Assembly: GCA_020831625.1 (NCBI GenBank)
Contig: JAFIGD010000051.1
Coordinates: 1 to 34,693, forward strand
Length of the DNA stretch: 34,693 nucleotides
Direction of reading: 5' to 3'
From: Verrucomicrobiota bacterium
GTDB lineage: Bacteria; Verrucomicrobiota; Kiritimatiellia; SS1-B-03-39; UBA6053
A program made the translations under genes and the position numbers. This document shows, piece by piece, positions 4,250-24,200 of this stretch. Within the stretch, counting starts at the first letter, position 1. Every line of letters starts with the position of its first letter. The notes under the pieces were generated by a model that worked only from the letters and a program-made list of their open reading frames with translations, was not told the origin of the DNA and did no database searches.

Positions 4250-5782
4250 ATGATTCGCGCCATGATCTATAAACATTCCTTATACGTTGTGCTCTCGTTT
4301 TTTGTTATCAATGCTTCAGCCGAAGTGTCGATTCTTGAATTAAGCCTGGCGGACAGCCGGGAGCTGGTGATACGCCAGAATTTGGAAATCGCGTCGCAAC
4401 GTTTGCAGTTACAGGGCGCGCAGGCCTTGTATGAGGGTGAAAAAAGAGCCTTTTGGGAGCCGGTGCTGGTGTTGTCGGGGCAGCGGGAGCGGAATGAGCG
4501 GGAAAACAACACCGAGCAGTTTATCAGTCAGGGTGTGGAGGATTTCGAGGAGACCAACTCGATCTATCAGCTGGCGGTGGAGCAGCCGATCGGAACGGGC
4601 GGGGACCTTCGGTTTTCGTATGTGCTCAGGAACCTGCAGAACAATCTGCGCGAACAGCGGGATCTCGAGGGGATTGAGCGGGAATACGAGGGGTTTATGG
4701 GGCTGGTGTTGACCCAGCCGCTTTTGCGGAACGCGGGGATGAATATGAGCCGGGCGATGATCCGGATGGCGCGGGAGGAATCAGAGGTGGCTTTTCAGGA
4801 ATGGCGGCGTCAGATGATGCAGGCGATTGGCTCGGCGGAGGCGGCGTACTGGGATTTGGAAATTGCGCAGCGGCGGGTGGCTTTGCGCGAGGCTTCGGTT
4901 CGGGTGGCCGAGCAGGTGCTGGAGGACAACCGGGCCCGTTTGGAGGCGGGACGCGGCGCGGAGGTGGAGGTGCAGCAGGCCGAGGCGGGTTTGGCGGTGC
5001 GTCAGACTCAGTTGCTGGAGGCGCGTCAGGCATTGGTGGAATCGTCGAACCGCCTGCGCACCTTCTTTTCGGAGTCCATTCGGGACCGCGGGCTTTTGAT
5101 CCGGGCTTCGGACAGCCCGGAACTGCGCGACATCACCGTGGATCCGCTGCCGCTGTTTGACGAGGCGCTGATGCTGCATCCGGATATTCTGATCCGGAAG
5201 CATCGGCGGGCCCAGCAGGAAATCCGGACGGAATACACCCGGAATCAGCAGCTGCCGGAAGTAAATTTGACCGGCAGCTACGGGTTTAACAGTCTGGGTG
5301 AAACCTCGTCGGACGCGGTTTCGGAGGCCTGGGGCGGGGATTTTGTTTCCTGGTCGGTCGGAATTCAGGTGCGGATGCCGCTGGGGGGCAACGCGAGGGG
5401 TCATGGAGAATATGAGGCGTCCCGTCTGCGCCTCCAGCAGGAGGAAACCGGACTGCGGGCCACGGAAATCGCGTTGATGAACCAGCTTTCGACCAGTGTG
5501 CGCCGGGTGGAAAACAATCTGGCGCAGGCCCGCAATTATCAGCGGGTGGCGGCGTTGAACGCCCAGCTGCTGGAAACGGAGCTGGCCCGGCTGGAGGCGG
5601 GGCAGAGCGACAGCCGCAAGGTGCTGGACACGGAAGAGCGGCTGACGGAGGCGCTGGAGGCGGAGGCCACCAGTGTCACCCGGTTTATGGTGGGACTGTT
5701 GGAACTGGATCTTTCTTCGGGCACTTTGCTGCGCACGCGGGATATGGACCCGATGCTGGCTGAATTGGATGGAGGTCAATAA
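4250..5782 (+). CDS. TolC-like outer membrane factor
   Basis: A 510-residue outer-membrane efflux/export channel subunit; such proteins trimerise to form a beta-barrel with a long periplasmic helical tunnel. A signal peptide (IYKHSLYVVLSFFVINASA) is followed by two related halves rich in long amphipathic helices. The segments around LADSRELVIRQNLEIASQRL and LFDEALMLHPDILIRKHRR are typical OMF repeat starts, and the AEAAYWDLEIAQRRVALREASV helix is also characteristic. Strand segments with alternating aromatics (for example DLRFSYVLRNLQ and VNLTGSYGFN) fit the barrel. ATG 4250 is taken as start; ATG 4262 begins the signal peptide equally well, and neither has a strong ribosome-binding site. It is the first gene of the operon, and two adaptors follow directly, as in type I secretion or tripartite efflux loci. 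Confidence 0.92.
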   Translation: MIRAMIYKHSLYVVLSFFVINASAEVSILELSLADSRELVIRQNLEIASQRLQLQGAQALYEGEKRAFWEPVLVLSGQRERNERENNTEQFISQGVEDFEETNSIYQLAVEQPIGTGGDLRFSYVLRNLQNNLREQRDLEGIEREYEGFMGLVLTQPLLRNAGMNMSRAMIRMAREESEVAFQEWRRQMMQAIGSAEAAYWDLEIAQRRVALREASVRVAEQVLEDNRARLEAGRGAEVEVQQAEAGLAVRQTQLLEARQALVESSNRLRTFFSESIRDRGLLIRASDSPELRDITVDPLPLFDEALMLHPDILIRKHRRAQQEIRTEYTRNQQLPEVNLTGSYGFNSLGETSSDAVSEAWGGDFVSWSVGIQVRMPLGGNARGHGEYEASRLRLQQEETGLRATEIALMNQLSTSVRRVENNLAQARNYQRVAALNAQLLETELARLEAGQSDSRKVLDTEERLTEALEAEATSVTRFMVGLLELDLSSGTLLRTRDMDPMLAELDGGQ

Positions 5783-5783
5783 T

Positions 5784-6602
5784 ATGAAGCGCATTACCGT
5801 GTTGAGGGTTTTGTCCGCGGGTTTTTTGTCCGCCGGGCTGGGTTTCGGAGAAGTCCGTTTCAGCGGCCTGGTGGAGCCGTACCGGGATGTGTTGCTGAGT
5901 TCCGAAGTGGCGGGGCGGATCGCGGAGATCGCCTTTCGCGAAGGGGACCGGGTTGAGGAGGGGGATCTGATTCTGCGTCTGGAGGACCGGGTGGAGGAAC
6001 TGGAGGTGCAGCGGCGTCAGGCGGTGTACAACAATCAGGCGGAACTGATGGCGGCGCGGGAGCGGCTGGCGCTTCTGCGGGACGAACTGGAGGCGACGCG
6101 CGCCCTGGCGGAGCGGACGGGATCGGTCAGCCGTGAGGAATTGAACCGCAAACAATTGGAGACGGTTCTGGGGCAGTTGGAGATTGACCGGCTGGAGCAG
6201 ACGCAGAGTCTGCAGCAGATTGAGTTGCGGATTGCACAGGAGCGGCTGGCGCAGAAGCGGATCATGGCCCCGTTTTCCGGGGTGGTGGCGCAGTTGCCGC
6301 TGGACGAGGGGGAGAGTGTGCAGCCGAATCAGCCGGCGATGCGTCTGGTGGAGGATGAGCGGGCGTTTCTGGTGGTGAATGTGCCCGCGGAACGCGCGCG
6401 GCGGCTGACACTGGGCGAGGAGGTTCAGTTGTTGTTTTTGATGGACGAAAACGTGTCCCGGCGCGGCGAAGTGGCCTTTTTGTCGCCGGTGGTGGATCCG
6501 GCCAGCGGCCTGCGCCGGGTGAAAATGGTGTTTGAGAATGCCGAGCCGAAAGTGGAGCCGGGGATTTCCGGATTCTGGCTGGCCGGGGGTGAGCATGAGT
6601 GA
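5784..6602 (+). CDS. HlyD/RND-type periplasmic adaptor
   Basis: A 272-residue membrane-fusion protein. After a signal-type N-terminus (MKRITVLRVLSAGFLSAG) come a first lipoyl half (about 25-70, EVAGRIAEIAFREGDRVEEGD), a coiled-coil hairpin (about 70-155), a second lipoyl half (IMAPFSGVVAQLPLDEGESV, about 160-185) and a short beta-barrel domain. It is short for the family and lacks most of the membrane-proximal domain. Adaptors of this class bridge an inner-membrane transporter and a TolC channel in the periplasm. GGAGGT at 5771-5776, seven bases before the ATG, is an excellent ribosome-binding site and lies inside the end of the TolC-like gene. The stop overlaps the next start within ATGAGTGA, indicating translational coupling. 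Confidence 0.92.
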   Translation: MKRITVLRVLSAGFLSAGLGFGEVRFSGLVEPYRDVLLSSEVAGRIAEIAFREGDRVEEGDLILRLEDRVEELEVQRRQAVYNNQAELMAARERLALLRDELEATRALAERTGSVSREELNRKQLETVLGQLEIDRLEQTQSLQQIELRIAQERLAQKRIMAPFSGVVAQLPLDEGESVQPNQPAMRLVEDERAFLVVNVPAERARRLTLGEEVQLLFLMDENVSRRGEVAFLSPVVDPASGLRRVKMVFENAEPKVEPGISGFWLAGGEHE

Positions 6603-8430
6603 GTTTATTTCGGAACCGCTGGGACAGCGGCTGGAGACGCTGCAGAAATTCTCCGGACCGCCGGCTTCGTTTTGGCTGGAGTTGTCGGGAACGGCCGCCG
6701 CCGCGGTAAACGGGCGGGTGGGCGCGGTGTTTGTGCGCACCACGGCGGGGAGTCCCTGGCAGTGTATCGGCATTTCGCCGAATGAACCGCTGGCGGAACG
6801 GCAGCAGGCGCTGCAGTTGTGTCCGGTGCAGGTGGCGGATGTGTGTGAGAAGGCCGGGGGACGGCTGAGCCAGTCGAGCCCCGGGGACCCGGCCATGCAG
6901 CTTTTGGCGGTGATGACACCGCTGCCCGGGTCGGACGGCCGGATTGTGGTCGCATCGGTGCGCTCCACCTTTGACACGGAGCGGGCGGAGGCGTTTCTGG
7001 ACCGGTTAACGGCGGTTTCCTCGGCGGCACCGGTGTATCAGGTGCAGCATGTCCTTAAACAGGCGCGCACGGATGTGGGCCAGTTTTCCAATGTGTTGGA
7101 CGTGCTGGCGCTGCTGAACGGTCAGGAAAAATTTGTGGCGGCGTCGATGTTGCTGGTGAACGAGCTGACGAACCGGCTGCGGGCGGACCGGGTGAGTCTG
7201 GGTTGGGAGCACAAGGGGTATGTGCGGGTCAAGGCGATCAGCCACATGGAGAAATTTGAGAAGAACATGGACGGGGTCCAGAGTCTTGAAACGGCGATGG
7301 AGGAGGCGTTTGAGCAGGACGCGGAGGTGGTATGGCCGGCGGCGGAGGATGCGGTGGTGGTGTCGCGGGATCACGGGCGTTTGGTGGAGGAGCAGACCTC
7401 CGGGCATGTGGTTTCGGTTCCGCTGCGCAAGGACGGCAAGCCGACGGCGGTGCTGACCCTGGAGCGGAAATCGTCTCCGTTTGATGAGAACGAGCTGCGC
7501 TGGCTTCGGTTGTGCGCGGACCAGATTGGGCCGCGTTTGGTGATTCTGGAGGAGAACAGTGTCTGGTTCGGCGCGCGGGCCTGGCGGAAATTCAAAACGT
7601 GGGCGGCCAAACTGGTGGGCGTGGAGCACACCGGCCCGAAGCTTTTGGCGATTGTGGGGGTGATGCTGGTCGCGTTTTTGTTGTTCGGGCGCTGGCCGCA
7701 CCGGGTGAACGGCACGTTTGAGCTGCAGGCCTCGCAGGCGCTGGTGCTTCCGGCGCCGTTTGAGGGCTTTTTGGATGAAATTCTGGTGGAAAAGGGTGAT
7801 CTGGTGGAGGCGGGAGCGGTGCTTCTGCGTCTGGACACCCGCGATCTGCTGATTGAAAAAGCGTCGGCGCTGGGGGATTTGAACCGGTCGCTGCGCGAGG
7901 CGGAGAAATCCCGGGCGGAGGGTTCGCTGGGTGAAATGCGGATGGCGGAGGCGATGGCCGCGCAGGCTCGGGCGCGTCTGGACCGCATGGAGGACCGGCT
8001 GGCCCGGTCGGAAATCCGGGCTCCGTTTTCCGGCGCGGTTGTGGAGGGCGATTTGCGGGAGCGGGCCGGCGCGCCGGTGCGCCAGGGGGAAATGCTCTTT
8101 CGACTGGCCCGCTGGGACACGATGCGGGTGCAGGCGACGATTGACGAGCGGGATATTGATTATATCGCGCCCGGCGCGGAGGTCCGCCTGATTTTCGCGA
8201 GCCGTCCGAACGAGCCCACCCCGGCGCGGGTGTTGCGGGTGGATCCGATGTCGTTTACGGATGACGGCGCCAATGTGTTTGTGGTGCATTGTGAAATTGA
8301 GGCGGAGGGGGACGCCTGGTGGCGGCCCGGCATGAGCGGCACCGCCCGGGTGGACGCCGGCAGGCGGGCGCCGATCTGGCTGCTCACCCGTCGCACGCTG
8401 GATTATTTCCGTCTTCGGTGGGGGTGGTAA
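6595..8430 (+). CDS. GAF domain - transmembrane - HlyD adaptor hybrid
   Basis: A 611-residue protein with an unusual order. Residues 1-150 are an unassigned cytosolic domain; about 178-315 form a GAF-like sensory fold (strand FVAASMLLVNELTNRLRADRVSLGW, ending in VSVPLRKDGKPTAVLTLERK). A single membrane helix follows (about 349-368, LLAIVGVMLVAFLLFGRW), then a lipoyl/coiled-coil/lipoyl HlyD module (about 378-600, with FEGFLDEILVEKGDLVEAG and IRAPFSGAVVEGDL). The helix would place GAF in the cytosol and the adaptor in the periplasm, so ligand binding inside could gate the conduit. ATG 6595 is chosen because GGGGGTGA precedes it; the frame is open further upstream inside the previous gene. It abuts the next gene with no gap. 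Confidence 0.88.
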   Translation: MSEFISEPLGQRLETLQKFSGPPASFWLELSGTAAAAVNGRVGAVFVRTTAGSPWQCIGISPNEPLAERQQALQLCPVQVADVCEKAGGRLSQSSPGDPAMQLLAVMTPLPGSDGRIVVASVRSTFDTERAEAFLDRLTAVSSAAPVYQVQHVLKQARTDVGQFSNVLDVLALLNGQEKFVAASMLLVNELTNRLRADRVSLGWEHKGYVRVKAISHMEKFEKNMDGVQSLETAMEEAFEQDAEVVWPAAEDAVVVSRDHGRLVEEQTSGHVVSVPLRKDGKPTAVLTLERKSSPFDENELRWLRLCADQIGPRLVILEENSVWFGARAWRKFKTWAAKLVGVEHTGPKLLAIVGVMLVAFLLFGRWPHRVNGTFELQASQALVLPAPFEGFLDEILVEKGDLVEAGAVLLRLDTRDLLIEKASALGDLNRSLREAEKSRAEGSLGEMRMAEAMAAQARARLDRMEDRLARSEIRAPFSGAVVEGDLRERAGAPVRQGEMLFRLARWDTMRVQATIDERDIDYIAPGAEVRLIFASRPNEPTPARVLRVDPMSFTDDGANVFVVHCEIEAEGDAWWRPGMSGTARVDAGRRAPIWLLTRRTLDYFRLRWGW

Positions 8431-10578
8431 ATGGCGTCCCAGATGTTCAGTGAGCATTGGTACCGCGTCCAGAATCAGAAGGTTGCGCTTCGTCCGGGGG
8501 TCCGCACCCGGCGGCAGATTTACCGGGGAGAGGTGTGGCGGGTGTTGTACGATCCGTTCAGTCATCAGTTTTTCCGGCTGCGCCCGGCGGCGTATGAATT
8601 TGTGGCCCGGCTGAGTCCGAAGCGGACGGTGGAGGAGGTATGGAACGAATGTCTGGAGCAGATGCCGGATGAGGCGCCCGGGCAGGGGGAGGTGATCCAG
8701 CTTTTGGCCCAGTTGTATCTTGCGAATCTGCTGCAGCTGGATTTGCCGCCGGACGCGCAGCAGTTTTTTGAACGGTACCGCAAGCGGAAAACCAAAGAGC
8801 GGATGTCGTATCTGTCCTACATCATGTTCGCGCGGTTTCCGCTGTTTGATCCGGATGATCTGCTGAACACACTGAAGCCGTACGCGAAGATGCTGTTCAG
8901 CAAAATCGGGGTGCTGGTCTGGTTTGTGGTGGTGGGGACGGCTTTGAAAACCGCGCTGGACAACGCCGGGGCGCTGATGGATCAAAGTCAGGGGATTCTG
9001 GCCCCCTCGAACCTGTTCCTGTTGTATGTGGGGCTGGTGTTTATCAAGCTGTTGCACGAGTTCGGTCACGGCATGGCCTGTAAGGTGTACGGCGGGGAAG
9101 TGCACACGATGGGGATCATGCTGATGATTTTCACGCCGATTCCGTATGTGGACGCGACCGCGAGCTGGGCGTTTCGGGAACGGCGGCGGCGGATGCTGGT
9201 GGGTGCGGGAGGCATGATTTTCGAGCTGTTCGCGGCGGCGATCGCCACGTTTGTGTGGGCGAACACCCAGCCGGGAACGCTGAACGCGCTGGCGTACAAT
9301 CTGATGTTTATCGCGTCGGTTTCGACGGTGCTGTTCAATGCGAACCCGCTGCTGCGGTACGACGGATATTATCTGCTGTCGGATTTGCTGGATATTCCCA
9401 ACCTGTATCAGCGGAGCACGCAGCAACTGCGGTATGTGTTTGAGGGCAAACTGCTCGGGAAGAAAAATCTCCGTCCGGCCAGTCCGTTCCGAAACGAACA
9501 GGTGACGCTGGCGGTGTACGGGGTGTTGAGCGGGCTGTACCGGTTGATTGTGTTCGGGGGCATTATCCTGTTTGTGAGCCGCCGCTTTCTGTTGGCGGGC
9601 ATCGTTATGGCTGCGATTTGTGTGACGACCTGGATCATCATGCCGGTGTTCAAGTTTGTGCATTATTTGCTGACGGATCCGAGTCTGGAGCGGAACCGGG
9701 GCCGCGCGATCGCGGTGTCTGTCGCGGGCGCGGCGGCGGTGGCGGCGCTGGTGGGCTGGGTTCCGTTCCCCTCCTCGTTTTCGGCTCCCGGCACCGTGGT
9801 GTCGTTTCCGTTCAGCGAGGTGACGGCCCGCACCGCCGGAAGTCTGGCGGAAGTGTCGATGCCGTCCTCTGAGGCGGTTGGGTTCGGCACGCCGCTGGTT
9901 CGCCTTGAGGATCCGGAATGGGGTTATTCTTTGCGGGGCGAACAGGCGGCCCTGGCGCACACGGACGCGCTGTATCGGCGCGCTCTGCACCGTTCCACCG
10001 CGGATTTGGATGTGATTGCGGCGCACCGCCGGGTAATGGAGGACCGTTTGGAGCGTTTGCAGGAGCACCGCCGCAATCAGAATGTTCAGGCGCCGTTGTC
10101 GGGAATCTGGGTGTCGGGGGCGCTGGAGAATCTGCAGGGCATGTGGGTGGAGCGTGGCAGCATTTTGGGATACGTGATTCATCCGCAAAACCGTTTGTTT
10201 GTGGCGGTGATTTCGCAGGACGAGGCCCGCTGGCTGTTTGACGAGGCGGGCGTTCGCCGGGCGCGGGTCCGGTTGCGCGGGTCCGCGCACGAACCGCTGG
10301 AGGCACCCGGCTGGCGGGTGATTCCGGCGGAGCAGCGGATGCTCCCTTCTCCAGCTCTGGGCTGGTACGGCGGCGGGGATGTGGCGGTCCGTCAGGACGC
10401 CCGCGAGGGAACCGAGGCGGCGAGAACCTTTTTTGAAGTGAGGATTCAGCTTCCGGAGTCGGAGGACGCGATGCTGCATCACGGCCGCACCGGACGGGTC
10501 CGCTTCCGGGTGGCGCCGGAAAGTCTGTGGACGCAGGCCAGCCGCCGGGTTCGTCAGATTCTGCGCAGGGAGAGATAA
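8431..10578 (+). CDS. PqqD-like / M50 metalloprotease / HlyD fusion protein
   Basis: A 715-residue polytopic protein. Residues about 10-115 resemble a PqqD-type winged-helix domain (FFRLRPAAYEFVARL, then TVEEVW, then LLAQLYLANLL); such domains bind leader peptides of ribosomal peptide precursors. About 150-445 is a site-2-protease-like membrane region with roughly six or seven helices. The zinc motif HEFGH (H209, E210, H213) and the distal NPLLRYDGYY motif (D311) are intact, so catalysis is plausible. A further helix leads to a periplasmic lipoyl/HlyD-like C-terminal part (about 450-710, with a helical hairpin and VQAPLSGIWVSG). ATG 8431 follows the upstream TAA directly, with GGGGGTGG as ribosome-binding site. 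M50 enzymes cut within membranes; the fused adaptor suggests that it sits in the export conduit and may handle the giant substrate. Confidence 0.88.
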   Translation: MASQMFSEHWYRVQNQKVALRPGVRTRRQIYRGEVWRVLYDPFSHQFFRLRPAAYEFVARLSPKRTVEEVWNECLEQMPDEAPGQGEVIQLLAQLYLANLLQLDLPPDAQQFFERYRKRKTKERMSYLSYIMFARFPLFDPDDLLNTLKPYAKMLFSKIGVLVWFVVVGTALKTALDNAGALMDQSQGILAPSNLFLLYVGLVFIKLLHEFGHGMACKVYGGEVHTMGIMLMIFTPIPYVDATASWAFRERRRRMLVGAGGMIFELFAAAIATFVWANTQPGTLNALAYNLMFIASVSTVLFNANPLLRYDGYYLLSDLLDIPNLYQRSTQQLRYVFEGKLLGKKNLRPASPFRNEQVTLAVYGVLSGLYRLIVFGGIILFVSRRFLLAGIVMAAICVTTWIIMPVFKFVHYLLTDPSLERNRGRAIAVSVAGAAAVAALVGWVPFPSSFSAPGTVVSFPFSEVTARTAGSLAEVSMPSSEAVGFGTPLVRLEDPEWGYSLRGEQAALAHTDALYRRALHRSTADLDVIAAHRRVMEDRLERLQEHRRNQNVQAPLSGIWVSGALENLQGMWVERGSILGYVIHPQNRLFVAVISQDEARWLFDEAGVRRARVRLRGSAHEPLEAPGWRVIPAEQRMLPSPALGWYGGGDVAVRQDAREGTEAARTFFEVRIQLPESEDAMLHHGRTGRVRFRVAPESLWTQASRRVRQILRRER

Positions 10579-10580
10579 GC

Positions 10581-12569
10581 GTGTCGTTTCCGGTGCCTTC
10601 GGTTGAATATCACGCGTTGACGGTCAAACGGCCCAAAGCGCTGCCCAAGGGGCTGGACGCGCTGGCGCACACCTGTGTGGGCGGCGCGGGGCGGCGGGGC
10701 AAGGTGTTGACGGCGCTTTGGGAGCAGGTCCGGCTTGTTGAGGGGCATGCGGATGAGCTCATGAATTTGTCGGACCGCCATTTGCGGGAGCGGCTGGAGG
10801 GATACCGGGATGAATTCCGGCGTCACCGGGCGGCAGTGCCGGAGTTGGTGGCCCCGGCCCTGGCGGCGGTGCGGGAGGCGGCGGCGCGGACGGTGGGGTT
10901 GCGGGCGTATCCGGTGCAGATTCTGGGCGCGCTGGCGATGCAGGAGGGCCGGCTGGCGGAAATGGCGACCGGGGAGGGCAAGACCCTGACCGCGGCGCTG
11001 GCGGCGGTGCTGGCGGGGTGGACGCATCTCCCCTGTCATATTTTAACGGTCAATGATTATCTAGCCCAACGCGACGCGGAGAATTATCGTCCGCTGTATC
11101 AGTTTTGCGGCTTGAAAGTCGACTTTGTGACCGGATTGATGGAGGCGGATCAGCGCCGGCGGGCCTATGGGGCGCACATTTGTTACACCACCAGTAAAGA
11201 GGTTTTGGCGGATTTTCTCAGGGACAGGCTGCAGTTGCAGCGGGTGGCGGATCCGCAGCGGCGTTTGATCCGTCAGTTGGCGCGGCCCAACCGGAGCGGC
11301 AGAGACAGTCTGGTGTTGCGCGGACTGCACACGGCGATTGTGGACGAGGCGGACAGTATTCTGATTGACGAGGCGGTGACGCCGCTGATTATCGCGCAGC
11401 CCCGGGCGAATCCCATGCTGGTGGAGGCCTGTGTCGCCGCCCGCGATCTGGTGAATCAACTGGAGCCCGGCACGCACTACACCGTGGATCACCGATACCG
11501 GGAAGTGAAACTGACGGAAGAGGGCAAGGAGCGTATTTCGGAGCTGGTGGAGGAATTGCCACCGATCTGGCGGGGTGTGGGGAGGAGTCAGGCGCTGCTT
11601 CAGCAGGCGATCACGGCGCGGGAGCTGTTTTTGAAAGGGCGGCAATACGTGGTCCAGGAGGATAAGATCATGATTGTCGACGAGTTCACCGGCCGGATTA
11701 TGCCGAACCGCTCCTGGAGTGAGGGTCTGCATCAAGCGATTGAATGCAAAGAGGGTCTGGAGATCACCGAGCCGAATGAAACCGTGGCCCGGATGAGTTT
11801 TCAGCGTTTTTTCCGGCTGTTTCCGAAGATTTGCGGCATGACCGGCACCGCGTGGGAGGCCCGGTTTCCGCTGTGGCGGATTTACGGACTGCCGGTGGTG
11901 CGGGTGCCGACAAACAAGCCGTGTGTCCGGGAGGTGTTGCCGGAGCGGATTTTCGCGACGCGGGAGGCAAAATGGGAGGCGGTGGCGGCAGAGGTTGCGC
12001 GGGTGCACGCGCAGGGGCGTCCGGTGCTGGTGGGAACCCGAAGTGTGGAGGCCAGTGAGCAGTTGGCGGTTCGGCTGGATGCGAAAGGGCTTGCGTACAA
12101 TTTGTTGAACGCGGTGCGGCACGCGGAGGAGGCGAGAATTATCGCCGAGGCGGGCCTGGAGGCGAAAATCACGATTGCGACCAATATGGCCGGGCGGGGC
12201 ACGGACATTAAACTGAGCCGGGAGGTTGCGGACGCGGGCGGGCTGCATGTGATCATGACCGAGCGGCACGAGGCGCGGCGGATCGACCGGCAGTTGTTCG
12301 GCCGGGCCGCGCGGCAGGGGGATCCGGGCAGCGCGCAGTCGTTTGTGTCTCTGGAGGACGAACTTTTCAAGCGGTTTGTGCCCGAGGCGGTTCGGAAATC
12401 GCTGGCCGGGGTTTCCGGCGGGGTGGCGCGGAAACCGTTTCTCGCCGCGCTGGACGCCGCGCAGCGGGCGGCGGAACGCCATGCCTTCCGGGGGTTGAAA
12501 TCTGTTCTGGGCACAGACACCTGGCTGGAGGAGTCGCTTTCGTTCGCGGAAGATGCGGGCAGGAGCTGA
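10581..12569 (+). CDS. Truncated SecA-like ATPase (accessory SecA)
   Basis: A 662-residue SecA relative; housekeeping SecA is about 850-900. Present are NBD1 with Walker A MATGEGKT (128-135) and DEADSILIDEA (255-265), a preprotein cross-linking domain between about 270 and 385, the VDEFTGRIMPNRSWSEGLHQ join (D367), and NBD2 with GRGTD (538-542) and GRAARQGD (574-581). The protein stops just after AQRAAERHAF, the start of the long scaffold helix. The helical wing, the two-helix finger and the zinc-binding tail of SecA are therefore absent. The GTG start has AGGGAGAG upstream; an in-frame ATG at 10527 lies inside the previous gene and is less likely. It is probably an energy source for the neighbouring export system and not the general secretion motor. 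No SecY partner is in the window. Confidence 0.93.
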   Translation: MSFPVPSVEYHALTVKRPKALPKGLDALAHTCVGGAGRRGKVLTALWEQVRLVEGHADELMNLSDRHLRERLEGYRDEFRRHRAAVPELVAPALAAVREAAARTVGLRAYPVQILGALAMQEGRLAEMATGEGKTLTAALAAVLAGWTHLPCHILTVNDYLAQRDAENYRPLYQFCGLKVDFVTGLMEADQRRRAYGAHICYTTSKEVLADFLRDRLQLQRVADPQRRLIRQLARPNRSGRDSLVLRGLHTAIVDEADSILIDEAVTPLIIAQPRANPMLVEACVAARDLVNQLEPGTHYTVDHRYREVKLTEEGKERISELVEELPPIWRGVGRSQALLQQAITARELFLKGRQYVVQEDKIMIVDEFTGRIMPNRSWSEGLHQAIECKEGLEITEPNETVARMSFQRFFRLFPKICGMTGTAWEARFPLWRIYGLPVVRVPTNKPCVREVLPERIFATREAKWEAVAAEVARVHAQGRPVLVGTRSVEASEQLAVRLDAKGLAYNLLNAVRHAEEARIIAEAGLEAKITIATNMAGRGTDIKLSREVADAGGLHVIMTERHEARRIDRQLFGRAARQGDPGSAQSFVSLEDELFKRFVPEAVRKSLAGVSGGVARKPFLAALDAAQRAAERHAFRGLKSVLGTDTWLEESLSFAEDAGRS

Positions 12570-12574
12570 CCGAC

Positions 12575-14395
12575 ATGAAGCGGCCGATCTGTTTTTCGGG
12601 GGGGGCGATTCGGATAATATTGTTTTTATGTGTTTTCGGCGCGCGCGCCGAGTCCGGCCCGGCCCTTGGGAGTCCGATGTTGTATTATTTGGATTCTACC
12701 GGGGCGTTGAATCTTGATGATGTGTTGGAGGGCTCCGGCACCGCAGATTTTTCGCCGGCGCCGTCTTCGATTCCCTCGTTCGGGTTTACCGGGGACCGCG
12801 TTTGGCTGCGGCTGGATCTTGGCGCGGAGGCGGACGCGGAGCGGATGCGGCTGTTTTCGCTGCGCACGGCGCGTTTAAGAGAGGTGGACTGGTATCTGGT
12901 TCAGGATCAGCGGTTGATTCAGCACCGCGCGGAGGGGATCGACCGGCCGCCGCCCGAAGACTTTCGGGGACGGTATCCGGCTTTTCTGGCGGAACTGCCC
13001 GCCGGGGACGCGGTCACGCTGTATGTGCGGGTTCGCTCCGACTCGTCCATTTGGCTGCCGCTGCACTGGGCGCCGCTGGGCGCGATGCTGGAAATGGACA
13101 TGCGCTGGAATTTTCTCGAGCAGGCGTTTCTGGGGTTCGGGTTTGCCATGGTGATCATCTCAATTTTGGTCAGTCTTGCCCATCCCGGCGGGGGGTTTGT
13201 TCGTCTGGCGGGGATCACCTTTTGTTTTCTGGGCTATCATCTGCTCTTTCACGGGTATTTGGATTGGTGGATCCCGGGGCTTCCGGCCTGGTTTCACCGG
13301 CATCTGCTGCTGGTGTGCGCCGCCGGGTCTTCCCTGTTTATGCTGCTGTTCACGCAGAAGTACTTCACGGATAAAGACGTCGGCAGGGTCAGCCGGTGGC
13401 TTTTGACCCGCAGCCCGCTGGTCTGTCTGCTCCTGGTTGTCATCCTTTCGGCGGTTCCGTTTCAGGCTGCGGCGCATTTGACTCTGCTGCTGGTCCTTTG
13501 GGCCTACGGTTTCGGACTGCTCCTGTCGGGCCGGATGTTGTATCGGTATCGGACGTTGGGTGATCTTTGTTTCACGCTGGCCTGGTTTTTAACTGCTTTG
13601 ACGATCGTCGCGTTCGCGCTGCAGATCCATTTTCCGGTCTCGGGTCCGCTGCATCCGCTGAACATCACCCGCATGCTGATTCCGATGATGTATTTGTTTT
13701 TTCTCGCGGCAAACCTGCGGCGGCAACGGAACCTCCTCGACGAAAAAGAACAGCTGCTGAAAGCGAGGCAGGCGGGCACCCGGGCGCACCTGGACGCATT
13801 GCGGTATCAGCTGAATCCTCATTTTCTGTTCAATGCGCTGAATTCGATTGAAGCGCTGGCCCTGGAGGATCCGGGAAAGATTCCGCTGTTGGTGAGGAGG
13901 CTGGCCACGGTGCTGCGTCTGCGGCTGAAGCCTTCAAAGGGCGGGTTGAACTCGTTGAAGGAGGAGTTGCACATGGTGCGGGCCTATCTGGACATTGAGA
14001 AAATACGCTTTGAAGAGCGTCTGGAGATTGAATGGAGACTTTCCGCGGAAAACCATGAGGTTCCGGTGCCGGAAATGATTTTGCAGCCGATGATCGAGAA
14101 CGCGGTCAAATACGGCATGATGATGAATGAGGAGATGAAAATCCGAATTGTGACGGCGGAGAGGGACGGGACGCTGTGTTTGCAGGTGTGGAACAAGGGG
14201 CGCCTGATCCGGAATCCCGCAGCCAATGAATCCGGGAACGGAATTGGCCTGAACAATTTACAGACCCGATTAAGGTTTCATTATGGGGAAAAGGCTGGTT
14301 TTATGTTGCGGGAAGGAAGCGGCTGGGTGATCGCCGAAGTCGAAATTCCTCTTTCTCTTAAACCCAATGAAAGCACTGCGGACTTTAATTATTGA
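12575..14395 (+). CDS. 7TM sensor histidine kinase of the LytS type
   Basis: A 606-residue membrane sensor. After a signal peptide comes a periplasmic domain (about 25-170) with the look of a 7TMR-DISMED2 jelly-roll (strands around GFTGDRVWLRLDL and GDAVTLYVRVRSDSSIWLPL), a fold thought to bind carbohydrates or similar ligands. Seven membrane helices follow (about 175-385), then a short coiled coil and the LytS-type kinase core: LRYQLNPHFLFNALNSIEAL with phospho-acceptor H416, the N-box IENAVKYG (N509) and the G-box NGIGLNN. AGGAG lies 9 bases before the ATG. Its last 29 bases overlap the response regulator gene, so the pair should be translationally coupled. Being last but one in the export operon suggests it senses an external or envelope signal and tunes the system. 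Confidence 0.93.
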   Translation: MKRPICFSGGAIRIILFLCVFGARAESGPALGSPMLYYLDSTGALNLDDVLEGSGTADFSPAPSSIPSFGFTGDRVWLRLDLGAEADAERMRLFSLRTARLREVDWYLVQDQRLIQHRAEGIDRPPPEDFRGRYPAFLAELPAGDAVTLYVRVRSDSSIWLPLHWAPLGAMLEMDMRWNFLEQAFLGFGFAMVIISILVSLAHPGGGFVRLAGITFCFLGYHLLFHGYLDWWIPGLPAWFHRHLLLVCAAGSSLFMLLFTQKYFTDKDVGRVSRWLLTRSPLVCLLLVVILSAVPFQAAAHLTLLLVLWAYGFGLLLSGRMLYRYRTLGDLCFTLAWFLTALTIVAFALQIHFPVSGPLHPLNITRMLIPMMYLFFLAANLRRQRNLLDEKEQLLKARQAGTRAHLDALRYQLNPHFLFNALNSIEALALEDPGKIPLLVRRLATVLRLRLKPSKGGLNSLKEELHMVRAYLDIEKIRFEERLEIEWRLSAENHEVPVPEMILQPMIENAVKYGMMMNEEMKIRIVTAERDGTLCLQVWNKGRLIRNPAANESGNGIGLNNLQTRLRFHYGEKAGFMLREGSGWVIAEVEIPLSLKPNESTADFNY

Positions 14396-15116
14396 TGATG
14401 AGCGTTTGGCACGCCGCGCCTGCCGACACCTTCTGGAGACCTGTGACACGGTGGAGGTGGTGGGAGAGGCCTCCAGTCTCTCGGAGGCCAAAAGGCTGAT
14501 TGACGCGCTTCGGCCCGATTTGATCCTTCTGGATATCGAAATGCCGGGCGGCAGGGGGATTGATTTGCTGGACAAGACGGCCCACAGGCCCCGGGTGATT
14601 CTGGTCACAGCCTACGAGGCGTATGCGCTCGAGGCCTTTGATCTGGATGTGGTGGATTATGTGCTGAAACCGATTGATCCCGACCGTCTCAGACGGGCCC
14701 TGGCGCGGGTGGCGTCCCGCGCCGGGCTCCATCGGAATGATGAAAAGGTCTCCCCCGACGGCGTGCCGGCGGAATCCGATGAACCCTGGTTGTCTCAGAT
14801 TGGTTCTGGAAACACCTTTGTGGACTGTGAACAGGTTCTGGCGGTGTTCGCGGACGGAAATTACACTCATGTCCTGTTTAAAAATCAGAAAGAGGAGTTT
14901 GTCCGGCAAAGCATGCGCCAATGGGAGGAGCAGTTGAACGAGGCGCACTTTCTTCGGTTGAACCGGAAAATGATCATTAATGTCCGCGAGATCAGCACCG
15001 TGAAGCTGGGCGCGCATGGGGCGCAGTTCACCTTGAACGGGTGTAAAACCCGCTTTTCCGTGGGAAGAAGCGGGGCTGTGAACTTGAAAAGGGTGCTGGA
15101 AAAAAGCGCGGTATAA
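14367..15116 (+). CDS. LytTR-family response regulator
   Basis: A 249-residue transcription factor. The receiver (1-120) has the acid pocket D10/D11, phospho-acceptor D56 in LLDIEMPG, T81 and K101 (VLKPID). A linker leads to a LytTR DNA-binding domain (about 145-245; ILAVFADGNYTHV-like strand written as VLAVFADGNYTHV, then RLNRKMIIN and the FSVGRSG region). LytTR proteins bind direct repeats spaced by about two helical turns, often next to a -35 box. Exactly such a repeat lies 49 bp past the stop, before the giant gene. The cognate kinase is the overlapping upstream gene. It ends the operon at a putative terminator. Confidence 0.95.
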   Translation: MKALRTLIIDDERLARRACRHLLETCDTVEVVGEASSLSEAKRLIDALRPDLILLDIEMPGGRGIDLLDKTAHRPRVILVTAYEAYALEAFDLDVVDYVLKPIDPDRLRRALARVASRAGLHRNDEKVSPDGVPAESDEPWLSQIGSGNTFVDCEQVLAVFADGNYTHVLFKNQKEEFVRQSMRQWEEQLNEAHFLRLNRKMIINVREISTVKLGAHGAQFTLNGCKTRFSVGRSGAVNLKRVLEKSAV

Positions 15117-15275: not shown

Positions 15276-18200
15276 ATGAAAACCCCGGAACAACATCATG
15301 CATTTGATTTGGAGGCGCTTGAGCCCCGAATCATGTTAAGTGCCGAAGGAGCGGAACTCCTCGGCACTGGCGCGGCTGTTGTGGTGGAGACCATGACGCA
15401 TGACGGTGGCGGGGATGAGGTTTCGGAGATGGAGGATGTCGGGGAGGATATTCTGTATGCAGCATCGTATGAGGCGCTTTTTTCGGAGACCTATCCGGAG
15501 ATGCAGGCGATGTCCCCGACGGGGGGCGATGAGCTGTCCCTGCATGTCCCGCGGCAGGTGTATATGGGAACGCTTTTTCCCGGGGAGAGTCAAGAACCGG
15601 TGCTGTTAATGCCCGACGCAGTTCTTCTCGGGCAGGAGATCAGTCAGTTGACGGTTTCTTTGGAGTACGGGGCGAATCCTTCCGACGGCCATGATCAATT
15701 GAGCCTTGGCGGGCAGATTTCGGGAACGGATGCCGAATCCGGTATCAGTTGGGCCTATCACGCGGGCACCCTGACGTTGAGCGGCGCGGCGGAGGCCTCC
15801 GCGTATGAGGCGCTGTTGCGGACTGTGGAGTATGTTCATCAGCAGCCCGGCTCTGCGGAATTGGCGGCAAGGTCTGTTTTAGTGGAGGTGACCTATGAGG
15901 ACAGCTCCACGCTTGAGGATGATTTTGATCTTTATCTGGCGCATCTGGATGCCGGTATTGAGGAGGTGTTCGAGAATCTCGACGCGCTCTTCAGCGAATT
16001 GTATGAGCATTTTTTCACCGATCTCGGCCTGATCCAGGCGCCGAACACGACCCTGGTCTCTTCGGCGATACGGGAAAACACCGATTTCATTCCCTATGTC
16101 AACAGCACCCTGCGCGATCTGGTGTTTCCGCAGCGGTTTGTCCCGGTGGACGGGGACGGCAATGAGGTGGCCGAGGAGGATGCGGAGGACTTCGAGCAGC
16201 GCAATAATTTCGGGATCACCCTTCAGCCCTGGGATGTGGGGCGTTTGTTCGATTTCGGGGATCTGTTTCTTTTCAATCCGGATACCGGGGACGGGGTTTC
16301 CTATGACACTCTGGCCGATTTGGGTTCCGCCTTGAGCGCGCACCTCACCCAGATTGTCCAGACGGTTCTTCAGGCGGACAGCTATGAGGTTTCGGTGGCG
16401 TTTTCGCCGACGGAGGATTTCGCCGGGTTTGTCATGGAGGTGAACATCTCGGCCACAAAGGATGTGGACACGTTTTCGCTGGAGCTGGGTCTTTTAGAGG
16501 ATGATCTGGGGATCCGGCTGATCGACGATCTGGCCTTCGGCGCCGGGGGCGGGGTGGAACTGAATTATCGTCTGACCGTGGATCTGAGTGATCACGATTT
16601 CGACGGTTCGAGCATCGCCGACGGCAAAACACAACTGGTGTTTGATGATCTGCGGGGGACCGCCGGGTTTCAATTCGCGGATGAAACCGCCGCGGTTGAA
16701 GTGGGGCTTTTGCGCGGAACCGCTGTGGACATGAGCGGCCGTCTGTTCGCGTCGCTGCCGATGCAGTTCCAGGGCGGCATTCAGTCCCGGACGATTGGCG
16801 GCTGGCAGAAGAGTCATTTCGGAAATTTCGTGAACGACGGCGGCGAGATCCAGCTGGACATCCCGCTGCAGGCGGAACTGTTTGGTCATACGGTGACCGA
16901 ACCCGGCACCAAACTTTCGGTGTTTGTGGAGGATATTTTCGCCAACACGCCTCCGGTGTACACGGCGGCGGGCTATGAGCGCCTGCAGGCCTTCGCGCTT
17001 TTGGAGCCGGAGGATGTGATTCAGGCGATTTTGGACGCCGAGGATTTGTTCTCGCTGCTGCAACGGGGCGGGGAGGAGCTTTTCGGCATTCCGCTGCCCT
17101 TTTTGGAAAATCTCACGCTGGGCGAGGTGTTCAATTGGGCGCTGCTGTTTTCCAATGAGGTGGGGAACCACATTGATGTGAACGAAATCCTGTTGATTAC
17201 CCCCGGAAGCGACGCGATGGCGGATATCCGGACGGATCCGGGCTTCACAGCGGAATGGCTTTTTCCCTCATTGTTTCCGGAGGTCAGCACCGACGCGCTG
17301 CTGCGGAATGAAATGAAGTTGGCGTTTATTGTGAACGGGGATCTGGCCACCTACACGGAGATTGTGGTTCCGGCGAGCAGCGCCCGGAGCACGCTGGATG
17401 ATCTGGTCGCGGAGCTGAACGGGATCTTTAACGGGCTGGGGGGGCTGTTCGGGATCGCGGGCGGTGGAATCCGGGCCCTGAACGTTTCGGAATCGCTCGC
17501 GTTCTTCGCGCCGGCGGCGAAAGGGATCGAGTCCCTGCATTTGGTGCCGCATCCGGATGCGCCCGGGGATCTGGAGAAATTCGCGCTGATGAATGAGGCA
17601 CCTGCGTTCATGGAACAGGCGCAGGGAGGGGCCTGGACCTCAACCTTCACCCTGGATCCGTCGAATCCGCTGGTGGCGGACGCGGCGATCGCGGTCACGT
17701 TGAACGGACAGACGGAAGTCATCGCCCTCAGCCGGATCGCGGGGGAAAACGCCAACGCGATGCTGGTGCGTCTGGCGACGGCGATTCAGGCCGCGTTCGG
17801 CGCGGACAAGATCGCGCTGTTTGCGGTGCAGAAAAATTTGTCCGGGGAGCCGGAAGCGGTGACTCATCCGACCGGGCCGTTCCGGATCCGCCTGCAGGCG
17901 GTCAATCCCGATGACACCCTCGTGTTGAATCTTGTCAATGCCGCCGCTGCGGCGGGGGGGACCGCCCTGGGCTTTTTTGTCGGGGACAATGCGTCAACTC
18001 CCCGGCCGTCCGAGTTGAGAACCTTTCAGGATTTTGTGAACCCGGCCATCCTGAACCGCGTGCCGGATCTGTTCAAATACGATCCGGCCACAAACACGGT
18101 GTCTCTTGGATACTTCGAAGCACCCCGGCCCGGAATGAGTCTCCCCGCAGAGTTGGACCTCAATTTCTCTTTTGCCTCCGTCAGCCAGATCAACACATCG

Positions 18201-21200
18201 GGGAACCTCAGTCTCACGGTGGATTCGCAGCTCGGGTTCGGGTTTGTGATTGATTTTGTGCTGACCCCCAACGCTCCGATTACCTTCGACAGCGGTGAAT
18301 TCAGCGGCGGAGACAGTTTCGTGCTGTCGGACGACGCGGTCTTCACGGTGAATTTTGTCCTCGGCAACGAGTACGATGTGGTGGTCAGCCAATCCGACAC
18401 GGCGGGGAACACCTCGCTCCAGGATTTGGCCGGGGACATCAACACCGCGCTCCGCGCCGCAGTGAACACGGCCACCGGCATCACGTCGGACCTGACCGAG
18501 ACCACCTTTGTGGCCCGGGTCCATCTGAATGCGCTGCAGTTGACCAATGCCGTCCGGCTGACGGCGTTCAACGATCCGTTCAGCCTGTCGAACACCAACG
18601 GTGTGCTCGACGCGGACGCGCTGATCGGTTTTGAAGTCCAGGGCCGGAATTATCTGGTTTCGCTTCTGGCATCGGACACCGCCGGCTTCACGACCTTCGG
18701 GCAGCTGATCGAGTATTTCAACAGTCAGCTTGCCAACGCCTTTCTGGATACGGACGGGAACGGAGAGATCAGTACCGGGGATGTGGTGGTGAGTCTGACC
18801 GACAGTGTGTTCGCCAGCACCTACACGAATTCGGACGAGGCGTTCCACATTTTCACCACGGGCCCCCCACAGCCGCATTGGACCTTTACCGCGAACCTTT
18901 TTGCCGAGGACGGCGGGGTTTTTCAAACAGAACTGAAATTCGACGGTGCGCCGCAGGGCGGTCAAATCCGGCTCACCTCCACCGTGGAGGGTGTAGAAAC
19001 CCGTATTCGCGGATTTGACGGCATCGATTTGGATGCGGAAGCGGATCTGGTGTTCGGAGATCTGGAATACACCCTTCCCGTCGACGTGGAAGGCACCTTC
19101 CGGCTGGGCTTCAATGAACTGAGTTTCGGAGCCCTGGCGGCCTCAGGTGCGTTCACCGCCTCGGTCCGGGCCCGCAACGCCGGCGGCTTCACCACGGATG
19201 AACTGCTGTCCGACGCCGTGGAGACGCTGGACATCTTCATTGAAGGGTATCCGGCTGATTTCAAGCTTTCGCTGGTGGACCTGAGTTCGGCGGTGTCGAC
19301 GATTCATTCGTCGGCCAGTATTGAATTCTCGGTGGCGGATTTCCAGGCGCTGCGGGTGGAGAGCTTCCAGGATTTCGCCTTGCCGATACCGCTGTTCAAT
19401 CTTGAGACGGTAAACGGTGAGCCCACGGGGGTTCTCACGGAAGACACCACCGTCGTCTTCTATTATGAAGGAGACAAATACAGTGTCACCCTGACGGCGG
19501 CGGAAACCACGGGCAACACGTCCTATGCGGAACTGATCACCCAATTTAATGGCGCGTTGACGGAAGCGGACGTCAACGACATTGCCGCGGCCACCTTCGA
19601 TATTTCCGAGGCCTTCCGTTTCCGGGCTCAGGGCGGTCTGTTACAGACTCAGGTTTTGCGGTTGGTATCCAACCCCGACTATATGACGGTGGAGGTGCTT
19701 CCGGATTTGGGCGCATATGGCGCGATCGGAGCACAAACCGGATTTTCCACTCAGGCGGTGGTGGACGCGCTTCTGTTGGCGCTGAATTCTTTTGAAGCGG
19801 TGTTTTCCGATCCGGCGGGCGTATTTTCCCAGGCGCTTCCGATCATCAACACCCCGATGAATCAGCTTTGGCAACTTCCCGGCGATTTCGCGGCGCGGGT
19901 CATGAACCTGCAGAACAATCCGGCATCTTCCGCCGCCACCCTGCCGAACCGGATCGCGGAGGCTTTCGGCCTGAGCGTCAATGAGGTCCAGGTTATCTGG
20001 GATGAACTGAATCAGGCCTACCGGATCGAATTCGCTTTCCTCACCGGCACCGCCGTGCAAAGGCCTGTGGATATCAACCCCGCCTTTTTCGCGCAATTCG
20101 TTCCCGGTTCCGGCGACGGACTGGACCGTCTGATTGACGGCGCAAACCGTTCCCCGGCCACGTTCCAGGGAATCGTCACCTTTAATATTGCCATCGGGAT
20201 TGATCTGAGCGATCCCGCCGCGCCCCGGTATTTCCTGTATGAGCACGACGGCGGAGAGGAACTTGAACCGGAGAACGGAACCTCGATCTCCGTGGACTTC
20301 AACATTTTCGCGGACGGCATAGATTTCACCTCCAGCAAAAAAGCACTGGGACTCTTTATCCGGGACGGGATCGCGATCCTGGGTGGCGCGGCGCAGCAGG
20401 TCAATGGAGAGACGGTGTTCATCCAGCGGGAAAACCGGAACCGGACCCCCTATCTTCTGCACGGGCTGGTGAATGATTTCGCCAATATCACCCTGCGGCT
20501 GGGGAATGCCCAGGACGCCGGATCGGATGGAAAATTCTATCTTGGCGGCACTGCGGAGGGTTCGGAGCGCGATTTAACGCCGGGGGACTTCACCCACACC
20601 GCCACCGGATCCGTACAGGTTATCCTGCCCATCTACACGCCGACGGAAATGCTGAATCCGTTCAGCAACCGGCAGGTGTCGGGGATCACGCTGGTGAATC
20701 CAACAACGATGACCGCGCAGACCAACGCCACGGGCACGGTTGGCGGCAATGTGTTTGAACTGCGGATCCATGATTTCGGCCAATATATCGAGGACGCGCA
20801 GGCGTGGCCGACGTTGACCGGATCGGAGAAAGGCGCGGTGCAGGCGGCCGGCAATGTGGAGCTTTATGTGCCCGATCCGGTGGCGGATGCCGGGATTGAA
20901 ACCCCGACGTTGTTGGATTTGCTCCGCGATCCGGCACTGATTCTGGACGGGATTGATTTCTTCTTCGGGGTGATTCAGGCCGGACTCTCCGCGATCGGCA
21001 GTATACCCATTCCCATCGTCGGGGACGCCTTCCAGGGAGCCGCAAACACCGTGTTCGCCTTCCGGGACGGCTGGCTCCGGGACATGCGGAACCGTCTGCG
21101 TGGCGCGGGAGAGGCTTTTGGTCAACTCGTGAAAGACTCGATTTTCGAGTTGCTGGGACCGGGCGGCGCGGGAATTCTTCTGCAACGAAACGGGATTTCC

Positions 21201-24200
21201 GGTCTGGACGGCCAAGTTCAGGCGGAAAATCCGGACGACATTCTTTTTGACTGGCTGGATAAACACGGCAATTCCCTCACCGACATGGGCGGATTCGGCG
21301 CGCACGGCCTGGAATTCCAAATCCGGCTGGGACAGCTCCTGTTTGACACCGGCTTCTCCTCCGACCTGAATTTTGACGCCCTCGCGCCGGTGATCAACCT
21401 GGGAATGGACGGCGGGTTCGGCTTCGCGGTCGGCTGGGATTTGCAGATTGGTTTCGGGTTTAATGTGGATGACGGATTCTATATTCGGGTGGACGGGGAC
21501 CGGAATGAGCTGGAGGTCCGCGTGGAAGGCACGCTGCGCGGCGCGCAGGATCACTTTGAGGTGCGCGCTGTGAACGATCCGGATCTGCCCAATTTCCCGA
21601 ACGGGGTTTTCGGAACCGGGTACGCGATTTGGAACCGCCGCGATCAGGAATGGGTGCTTGGTCCGGCGAAGGGCGACGGCTCCCGCGATCCGATCCACGT
21701 GATCAATGTCAATAAGCAGGGGCAAATCGTGGACCCCTCGGAATGGCAGTCGAATCTAATTTTCGGCAGCGATCTGTTGGGCGGCTCCTCCTGCGGCTGT
21801 TCCGGCGGATTGATTGATTTGGATGAACCGGAGCTGTTCTGGGTGGTGGCCGCCTTTGATGATGACGCCGGGGAATGGGTGCCGGCGTATTTGGATACTC
21901 TGGGTCAATTCCGCGCCCAGGAAAACGGGAGTTTTGATCCCGGCCAGATGATTCTGTATGACCGCGCACAGCCGTTCAGTGCCTTCGGATCGCTTTTCTT
22001 CCTGAATCTGGAGGCGAACGATCAGATCCGCATCGGGCTGGATCCGCCCGGTGACGCGGACTACGCGTTCGGAATCGACAAAGATCAGAAATCCCCCAAT
22101 GACCGCAACGACGCGTCCAACGGCGTGCGGCGGAACAATCATCTGCCCAGCCGCGCCCGGGCCAGCATCGGGATCAACCTTTGGGATCCATCCTCGCAGT
22201 CGAGCAAAAATAATATTCAAGCCTCCACAGCGGTGAACACAAACTGGGTCGGGGTGGATTGGAACGGCGAGATTATCACTGAGCTGGGGCTGCCCTTCAC
22301 CGGCAAAAGTGAAAACGGGTTCCCGGTGGTCAGTTTCAACAATGTGTTTGACACCGACAACGGGGATCTTTGGTTCATCGTACATCTGTTGGATAAAGAC
22401 AACGCGAATGACATCCGTGATTACTTCAACAAACAACTTGAAGCGAAGGGATGGACGCTGGAGGTGGAGCGCCGCCCGGGCTTCAGCAGCAGCGGGATCG
22501 CTTATGAGCGGATTTCGATTGTGGACGGGGTCTGGTCCTATCTGGACAGCGATGACGAATGGCAGCCGGTGTTTGAAGAGGACTGGACCTTTTTCATCCG
22601 CGTTCCGGATGAATTCGGCGGGAGCACGTACGACTTGATCCGGGTGAAATACATCCAACTCGGCGATGACTATTACGATATCCTTGAAAACGGCACCGGC
22701 TGGTACATTGTCGATCCGGACTACAGCGGTGTCGCGGCAGGGGCGCAATTTGACACCGTCAATGGCCTGCTGAATCCCATTTTCCTGTTCGACGAGATCG
22801 AGGACGATTGGCTGGTGCCGCTGTTTATGCTGTTGTCCACCGATTACAGCCTGAACACGCTGGTCAGCGAAGGGAATATCAAAACCGACACGTTCCCGGG
22901 CCAGGGCGGAACCATGCCGCAGGGCGTGGGCAGCGATTTCACCAATCTGGTGCGCTGGGGATACTGGTTGCCGGTGCTTTCTCATAAATTCGACGCCAGT
23001 GAAAACATGATCACCTGGGAAGAGCTTCGCGGGAATGACTCCGCCAAGATCATCCAACTGGTGCTCCGCGCGGATATCATTGTGAATCTGTCTCTGGAGC
23101 TTTCGGTCAGTGACAACGCCGCCTTCCCGAAAATCAGAGCCGATTTGAATCTGGACTGGGGCATTGACGTCAATTTCCGTGACGAAAATCCCTTCGGCGA
23201 GGTCAACTGGTATCCACATGTGGGCATGAACAACATCCGGCTGGATATGGGGTCATTCCTGACCCAGTATCTGCGGCCGGTGCTGGAACAGATCGACGAG
23301 GGTCTTTCACCGATCCGTCCGGTGATCGAGGTGCTGACCGAACCGATTCCGGTGATCTCCGACATTGCCGGGCGCGACATCAGTCTTTCGAACCTGCTGT
23401 ATCAGTTCGGAGGTCCCAAAGGCCAGGCCATTGCCACCTTTATTGACGTGGTGCGTCTGGTGAGTGATTTAAGCGCGATGGTCGCCGCGCTTCCCGACGA
23501 CATGAATGTGTATCTGCCTATCGGCAATTTCTGGATTCCCTCCGGCAAAAACGGTTTGGAGGATGGGATCTTCTATGACAACAACGAGCTGACACCGCCC
23601 TCGTTCTCCCAGCAGAATCAGGCGTTGACCGGTGACAATGTGGAGGCTGCGGCCGGGGCGTTCGGCCTGTTGAACGATGCCAACAAAGCGAACCAGCCCA
23701 ACAACGGCATCACCAACAACAATAAAAAAGGCGGGTTCGCCTTCCCGATTTTCAGTGATCCGACGCAAGTATTCAGTCTGCTGATGGGTGGCGACGCGGT
23801 GTTGATCACGTACAGTCTTCCGCAAATTGACTTCAGTTTCAACAAGCGGATTCCGCTGATCAAGTTGGGACCCTTCCAGGCCGGGATGCGCTTCGGCTTC
23901 GAAATCACCGCGCAACTGCACTTCGGGTTCGACACCTACGGCGTTCGCAAAGCGATGGACACCGGCAATCCGCTCTGGGCGATCGACGGGCTGTATATCA
24001 GCGACCGTCAGAATGCGGACGGCACCGGGCGCGACATTCCGGAAGTGACGTTGCGGGCGACCATCGCCCTGTATGGCGGCATTGATGTGTACCTGGCCCG
24101 CGGCGGCATCGAGGGCGGATTCACCGTGGGCATTGATATTGACCTCAACGACCCCAACGACGACGGAAAAGTGCGCCCCTCCGAGTTGCTGGCCGTGGTG

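Follow-up and report, generated by a model that had tools for sequence, protein, structure and literature searches.

A 34,693-nucleotide stretch of DNA from a Verrucomicrobiota bacterium (the window, which is the whole of contig JAFIGD010000051.1 in assembly GCA_020831625.1) encodes a 715-residue protein in which an RRE (PqqD-like) domain, an M50 site-2 protease and a membrane fusion protein are joined, together with a giant protein that begins with an LEPR-XLL leader. Across genomes, proteins of this architecture occur with giants that carry such leaders. On balance, we think it probable that the RRE captures an LExRxL[LF] leader, that the M50 centre then removes it and that a tripartite machine exports the giant.

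The gene lies in a co-directional run on the + strand, comprising the genes for TolC, HlyD, GAF-HlyD, the M50 protein, a short SecA, a histidine kinase, a LytTR protein and the giant. The features are as follows.

4250 to 5782, + strand: TolC-family outer-membrane factor (Pfam OEP, 4e-38; TolC subfamily TIGR01844)
5784 to 6602, + strand: HlyD/RND-type periplasmic adaptor (TIGR01730, 2e-38, over the cut-off)
6595 to 8430, + strand: GAF-HlyD fusion protein (Pfam GAF, 5e-9; HlyD_D23, 3e-16)
8431 to 10578, + strand: RRE (PqqD-like), M50 site-2 protease and membrane fusion protein in one chain, 715 aa
8503 to 8721, + strand: RRE/PqqD-like domain core, residues 25-97 (models; Foldseek RRE matches; Pfam PqqD weak)
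9055 to 9069, + strand: HEFGH zinc-protease motif, residues 209-213 (H209, E210 and H213 invariant)
9343 to 9366, + strand: NPLLRYDG motif, residues 305-312, with the third zinc ligand D311 (invariant)
9766 to 10524, + strand: periplasmic adaptor (MexA/MacA-like) domain, residues 446-698 (Foldseek 1vf7, 6ta5 and 3fpp, E about 1e-11)
10581 to 12569, + strand: second, shortened SecA (SecA_DEAD, 8e-91)
12575 to 14395, + strand: 7TMR-DISM histidine kinase (profile match)
14367 to 15116, + strand: LytTR response regulator (profile match)
15276 to 34691, + strand: giant LEPR-XLL protein, open at the window end (NF012209)
15303 to 15347, + strand: leader motif F-D-L-E-A-L-E-P-R-I-M-L-S-A-E, residues 10-24 (NF012209; logo of 48 N-termini)

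Three genes probably start within longer listed open reading frames (ORFs): the HlyD adaptor at MKRITV (frame 5673-6602), the GAF-HlyD protein at MSEFIS (6532-8430) and the shortened SecA at a GTG codon at 10581 (10527-12569). The ATG of the M50 gene abuts the GAF-HlyD stop codon with no gap, and its frame runs unbroken to 715 aa; its coordinates are exact. In nearly all sister loci, the GAF-HlyD gene likewise lies immediately 5' of the M50 gene, and the TolC gene is kept in most. The histidine kinase and LytTR genes (12575-15116) separate the genes of the machine from that of the giant and could possibly provide dedicated regulation of the system. In addition, an antisense ORF of 1158 aa (7006-10482, - strand) lies opposite the GAF-HlyD and M50 genes, probably as a by-product of high-GC codon usage, and a Ser/Thr kinase gene (345-1508) lies at the contig's upstream edge.

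With a second SecA and genes for M50-HlyD, GAF-HlyD and HlyD proteins, the locus corresponds to the secondary SecA_DEAD, type I-like locus described in 2015 (Kamneva et al., PMC4452313), which contains the same set, sometimes with TolC, and is similarly widespread across phyla. That paper proposed a role in secretion, called the broader biological role "completely unknown" and makes no mention of PqqD, LEPR or giant proteins. No ABC family was found among the scanned window proteins, which sets the locus apart from type I secretion, and the families identified there include no daptide biosynthetic genes.

Computation established the domain identities of the 715-residue protein and the integrity of its active site. 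The full-length model (pLDDT 83) contains a beta-beta-beta-alpha-alpha-alpha domain at residues 25-97, membrane helices and the adaptor domain, and the order of strands and helices was retained when the N-terminal domain was modelled alone (54 sequences, pLDDT 84); both models give a winged-helix fold of three strands followed by three helices. When the isolated domain was searched with Foldseek, the best small-domain PDB matches were lasso-peptide B1 proteins whose structures include their leaders (6jx3, 5v1u and 5v1v). LynD (4v1t), an RRE solved with its leader, comes further down the list, which also holds the cyanobactin oxidase ThcOx and NO66; the latter has a related winged helix. The RRE matches have probabilities of 0.80 to 0.98 and E values of about 0.1 to 0.4 (0.05 to 0.4 over the list), none significant singly, and it is their consistency rather than any single E value that carries weight for the RRE reading of the modelled domain. 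A Foldseek search with the full-length protein is dominated by adaptor matches and gives no information on the RRE. Pfam PqqD (PF05402) matches residues 38-101 weakly (E = 0.016, under the gathering score) and is found in 12 of 29 homologues, at best with 4e-5. An earlier note on this DNA had read the N-terminal domain as PqqD-like, which the modelled fold bears out.

The HEFGH/RYDG protease that the same note had called intact is so: H209, E210, H213 and D311 are invariant in all 21 subfamily-A homologues and in all 29 after eight distant ones were added, and HExxH is present in every full-length member. Pfam M50 matches 29 of 29 homologues at E <= 1 (0.0029 for the window protein, under the gathering score), and HExxH, the downstream Asp motif and hydrophobic segments together identify an M50 site-2 protease. 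The C-terminal part had been described as a periplasmic lipoyl domain. Such a domain is present, as part of a larger MexA/MacA-like adaptor (E about 1e-11) with the barrel-sandwich, hairpin and beta-barrel of membrane fusion proteins; its Foldseek matches include MexA, AcrA and MacA, and the RND-type profile TIGR01730 covers residues 446-595. The nearest NCBIfam family is daptide_HExxH (NF041824, 2e-46), which aligns over residues 44-404, RRE part included. Its score of 158.9 bits, against a curated equivalog cut-off of 300, marks the window protein as a relative rather than a member.

The giant protein of the window begins MKTPEQHHAFDLEALEPRIMLSAEG, has no signal peptide and is at least 6,472 aa long, running past the end of the window and contig. 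Giants of 5,000 to 20,000 residues that lack a signal peptide have a wide distribution among environmental bacteria; we know of no export route for them and of no partner for LEPR-XLL. NF012209 matches residues 12-26 of the window's giant at 20.7 bits (cut-off, 17). The consensus of 48 LEPR N-termini is F-x-[LV]-E-x-L-E-P-R-[ILV]-L-L-S-[AG]-[DE]-P, with the motif a median of 18 residues into the protein and conservation dropping on either side. F(-5) is conserved in 32 of 44 sequences and E(-2) in 46 of 48, though neither was in the search pattern. Only four of the 48 N-termini contain a signal-peptide-like hydrophobic stretch, in agreement with the earlier suggestion that LEPRIMLS stands in place of a signal peptide. 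A profile search of the window's genome returned one M50 of this type and three LEPR giants; one machine would therefore serve several substrates in trans. The two other giants lie on one contig (G000:C29, L170 and L171), with open frames of 4,871 and 18,189 aa (the window's giant came out at 6,474 or more residues in the same search), and no Pfam domain was found in their scanned stretches at E <= 0.01-0.05.

The coupling between reader and leader is genome-wide. Within the phylum, 22 of 289 genomes encode a subfamily-A M50 protein (defined at E < 1e-90), 22 encode LEPR-XLL and 20 encode both (Fisher 1.5e-26, with genomes treated as independent despite shared ancestry). The two LEPR genomes lacking subfamily A are G218, which has a related C-type M50 and a second SecA, and G119, with a weak match in a 636-aa frame. 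Similarly, among 300 Burkholderiales genomes, 32 contain the M50 (E <= 1e-60), 32 contain LEPR and 28 contain both; a single LEPR genome (G432, 23-residue frame) has no M50 at 1e-30. The LEPR matches in G119 and G432 are probably due to chance. In a set of named records mostly from outside the Verrucomicrobiota (Desulfobacterota, Nitrospirota, Elusimicrobia, Spirochaetes, Fibrobacteres, Planctomycetota, Proteobacteria and others), 40 of 50 M50-A genomes carry LEPR-XLL proteins, up to nine apiece. Exceptions exist on both sides: a reader occurs with no detected leader in G265, G086, G070, G222, G094 and 10 of the 50 named-record genomes, and a leader occurs with no matching reader in G064, as well as in G218 with its C-type protein. 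The bounds of the M50 subfamilies were set by score once the data had been inspected.

LEPR lies beside the M50 gene in only about 14 of 80 flanks of named loci; adjacency alone is therefore not the rule, and the genome-wide test was used instead. Where both were tabulated on the same contig, 7 of 10 subfamily-A pairs, 11 of 22 pairs of a second subfamily (B) and 11 of 13 Burkholderiales pairs are no more than 6 kb apart. A loose motif was poorly specific against permuted controls (19 against a mean of 6 for A, some permutations scoring higher), and the strict motif separated clearly from them (14 against about 1, and 19 against about 0.4). In its distribution the LEPR motif acts as a leader would, in line with the earlier note: it follows the RRE-M50 protease from phylum to phylum. 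The near-exclusive co-occurrence of RRE-M50 proteins with LE-x-R-x-L-L/F giants over many phyla suggests a tag with the role of a RiPP leader, predicted to admit the giants to an export machine of their own.

Subfamily B consists of distant M50 relatives (25-30% identity) that have no LEPR-XLL matches and whose neighbours begin MYQLEDRILFDGAA, MIYRLEDRVLFEAAAA and similar. An LEDR leader profile, LE[DE]R[IV]LF, was built from nine of these neighbours. It is found in 32 of the 289 genomes, namely, 30 of the 33 with subfamily B and 2 of the 256 others (Fisher 5e-35; with the seed genomes removed, 21 of 24 and 2e-26; shared ancestry ignored in both). Conversely, LEPR-XLL is found in no subfamily-B genome, and LEDR in one A genome alone, as a weak match. 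The type of tag follows the M50 subfamily. The repeat in another phylum and the second leader type reduce the effect of shared ancestry on the Fisher values and do not remove it. N-terminal leaders of the form LE[DEK]R[IV]LF[DE] were seen on giants at L163, L165, L175, L180, L205, L207 and L211. Two of these giants were scanned (L163 and L175): both contain DUF4347 and one contains Chlamydia polymorphic-membrane-protein (PMP) repeats, and their leader has no NCBIfam or Pfam match. Further tag variants occur near an M50 gene in G099, where frames at L182:1759 and L182:15271 start LEALEQRQLLAGG and IEALETRTLLAGAAD.

These pairings bear on the reading of the M50 protein as an envelope-stress protease that cuts GAF-HlyD or a regulator, its link to the LEPR giants being indirect. 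Site-2 proteases are classical signalling enzymes, and the locus has GAF, histidine kinase and LytTR genes close by. However, this M50 carries a fused RRE and MexA-like adaptor, co-occurs almost one to one with leader proteins and is matched by subfamily to the leader type, and we regard a signalling role of this kind as very improbable.

The subfamilies also differ in their SecA complement. The subfamily-B genomes tested have the housekeeping SecA alone, whereas A- and C-type genomes have a second SecA. Group C, a third M50 group accompanied by a second SecA (about 600 aa) of its own, was observed in G183:C1 (L174), G186 (L167) and G218 (L168 and L169), and G183 carries both an A and a C system. 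A second SecA is likewise lacking from clusters found in four genomes of one genus, g72 (G042, G054, G152 and G072). There, one or two small ORFs per genome (110-163 residues, with LESRELF, LEARELF or LESRHLF leaders) lie upstream of genes for GAF-HlyD, HlyD and the RRE-M50-adaptor protein. The clusters also encode a radical SAM protein and a PqqD that stands alone (matches up to 8e-11); the one radical SAM protein scanned falls in the YydG epimerase family (5e-32). Loci L176:2932-12008, L184, L199 and L200 hold such clusters. Judged by gene content, the g72 locus looks like a RiPP cluster with the same kind of tag and protease as the giants, and it is a candidate for an epipeptide-like class that would be exported via a Gram-negative-type conduit. 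As neither the B systems nor these RiPP-like clusters have a second SecA, the M50 protein and the adaptors are the constant partners of the tag, and the second SecA is optional.

The same data can be turned to the question of which component reads the leader. The second SecA, GAF-HlyD or HlyD might do so while the M50-RRE protein works on some other small peptide that has escaped notice: the normal targets of RREs are small RiPP precursors, g72 has such precursors, and GAF-HlyD and HlyD are as constant as the M50 protein, so that either could be the reader. However, SecA as the general receptor was rejected, since B systems have the housekeeping copy alone. Moreover, the small g72 precursors bear the same LExRxLF tag rather than another, and daptide systems keep an RRE-M50 protein and a similar leader without the SecA and adaptors of this locus. 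We consider a reader other than the RRE distinctly unlikely. Recognition of the leader by the RRE is a strongly supported inference.

The closest described relative is the daptide protease MpaP/DapP (PMC10036551; NF041824), an RRE-M50 leader peptidase in which the RRE is likewise N-terminal to an M50 site-2 protease and whose homology to the window protein spans both domains. Daptide systems differ in that they make small modified peptides in actinobacteria and bacilli, use separate ABC transporters and have neither SecA nor a giant substrate; the family model has no adaptor domain, whereas the window protein does. In the epipeptide system (YydF-G-H/EpeX-E-P; NF058609, TIGR04078), an M50 protease is thought to cut and export the peptide, and a YydG-family epimerase is shared with g72, where it accompanies the RRE-M50-adaptor protein. 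That system is Gram positive, however, and its YydH/LiaK model aligns with just the protease part of the window protein. Type I secretion and PCAT systems with a C39 peptidase resemble our proposal in having a leader-cutting protease fused to the exporter and a HlyD and TolC conduit. They differ in using an ABC ATPase, none of which was found in this locus, and a double-glycine leader or C-terminal signal; here the protease is a metalloprotease in the membrane and the leader is N-terminal LExR. The analogy to peptidase-containing ABC exporters drawn in the earlier note is therefore apt in logic, although the locus has no such exporter. The LEPR-XLL family (NF012209) names the motif alone and is scarcely mentioned in the literature searched.

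At the leader level, ELExMEAP, a recognition motif for daptide enzymes (PMC10036551), can be aligned on LExLEPR. Leaders of the YydF family, read from two plasmid records annotated as such, carry L[EQ]xKxLL[DN], a run similar to the LEPR leader though not significantly so. The comparison also took in the B. subtilis sequence. The similarity of the LEPR leader to both is statistically weak (shuffle fractions of about 0.03 to 0.1 for the better matches), a suggestive lead.

Cleavage is a separate matter from recognition. The homology to MpaP makes cleavage of the leader by the M50 centre plausible by analogy, and if the daptide cut site carried over, cleavage would fall after LEPR, which is a guess. 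The RRE might instead dock the giant at the adaptor complex, with the M50 centre acting elsewhere or cutting after export. The co-occurrence data, and with them all support for recognition, are silent on cleavage. Site-2 cleavage usually takes place in a transmembrane segment, and none is evident close to the giants' leader. On the other hand, the catalytic residues do not vary in any subfamily, even at about 25% identity, a constancy needless in a mere tether, and PMC10036551 describes the daptide relative as a leader peptidase. Recognition without cleavage is therefore unlikely in our estimation, though less so than a different reader.

In the scheme that we favour, leader-guided export with cleavage, the 8431-10578 protein would be the inner-membrane gate of an export machine for giants. 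Its cytosolic N-terminal RRE would bind the N-terminal leader LE-x-R-x-[LM]-[LF] of unfolded giants (LEPR-XLL in subfamily A), and the M50 centre would probably cut in the motif or close to it. The fused periplasmic adaptor, HlyD, GAF-HlyD and TolC would form the conduit. In A- and C-type systems, the shortened second SecA could plausibly act as the motor pushing the chain, and a single machine would handle several giants, whether their genes lie next to its own or elsewhere. We infer this sequence of binding, cleavage, export route and SecA drive from the gene content and the comparisons above.

Taken singly, the locus, the LEPR motif and the fusion of RRE to M50 had all been described before. 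The link between reader and leader appears to be new: no published connection of LEPR, M50 and RRE was found in a literature search that reached only a minority of subscription papers and bioRxiv preprints. The broader generalization, which we put at slightly less than an even chance, is that LE-x-R-x-L-[LF] serves as an export leader in general and that RRE-M50-adaptor proteins form a secretion class of their own, which admits proteins as long as about 20,000 residues through RiPP-style leader recognition. If so, a single leader-peptidase family would have branched into RiPP export on one side and the export of giants on the other, and leader and reader would have co-evolved in matched subtypes (LEPR with A, LEDR with B and LESR in one genus). 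Giants without a signal peptide gain a proposed address tag, receptor and protease, and a conserved locus whose role had been called completely unknown gains a proposed substrate. RREs, which read the leaders of small peptides, would thereby be seen to recognize those of proteins that rank among the largest in bacteria as well.
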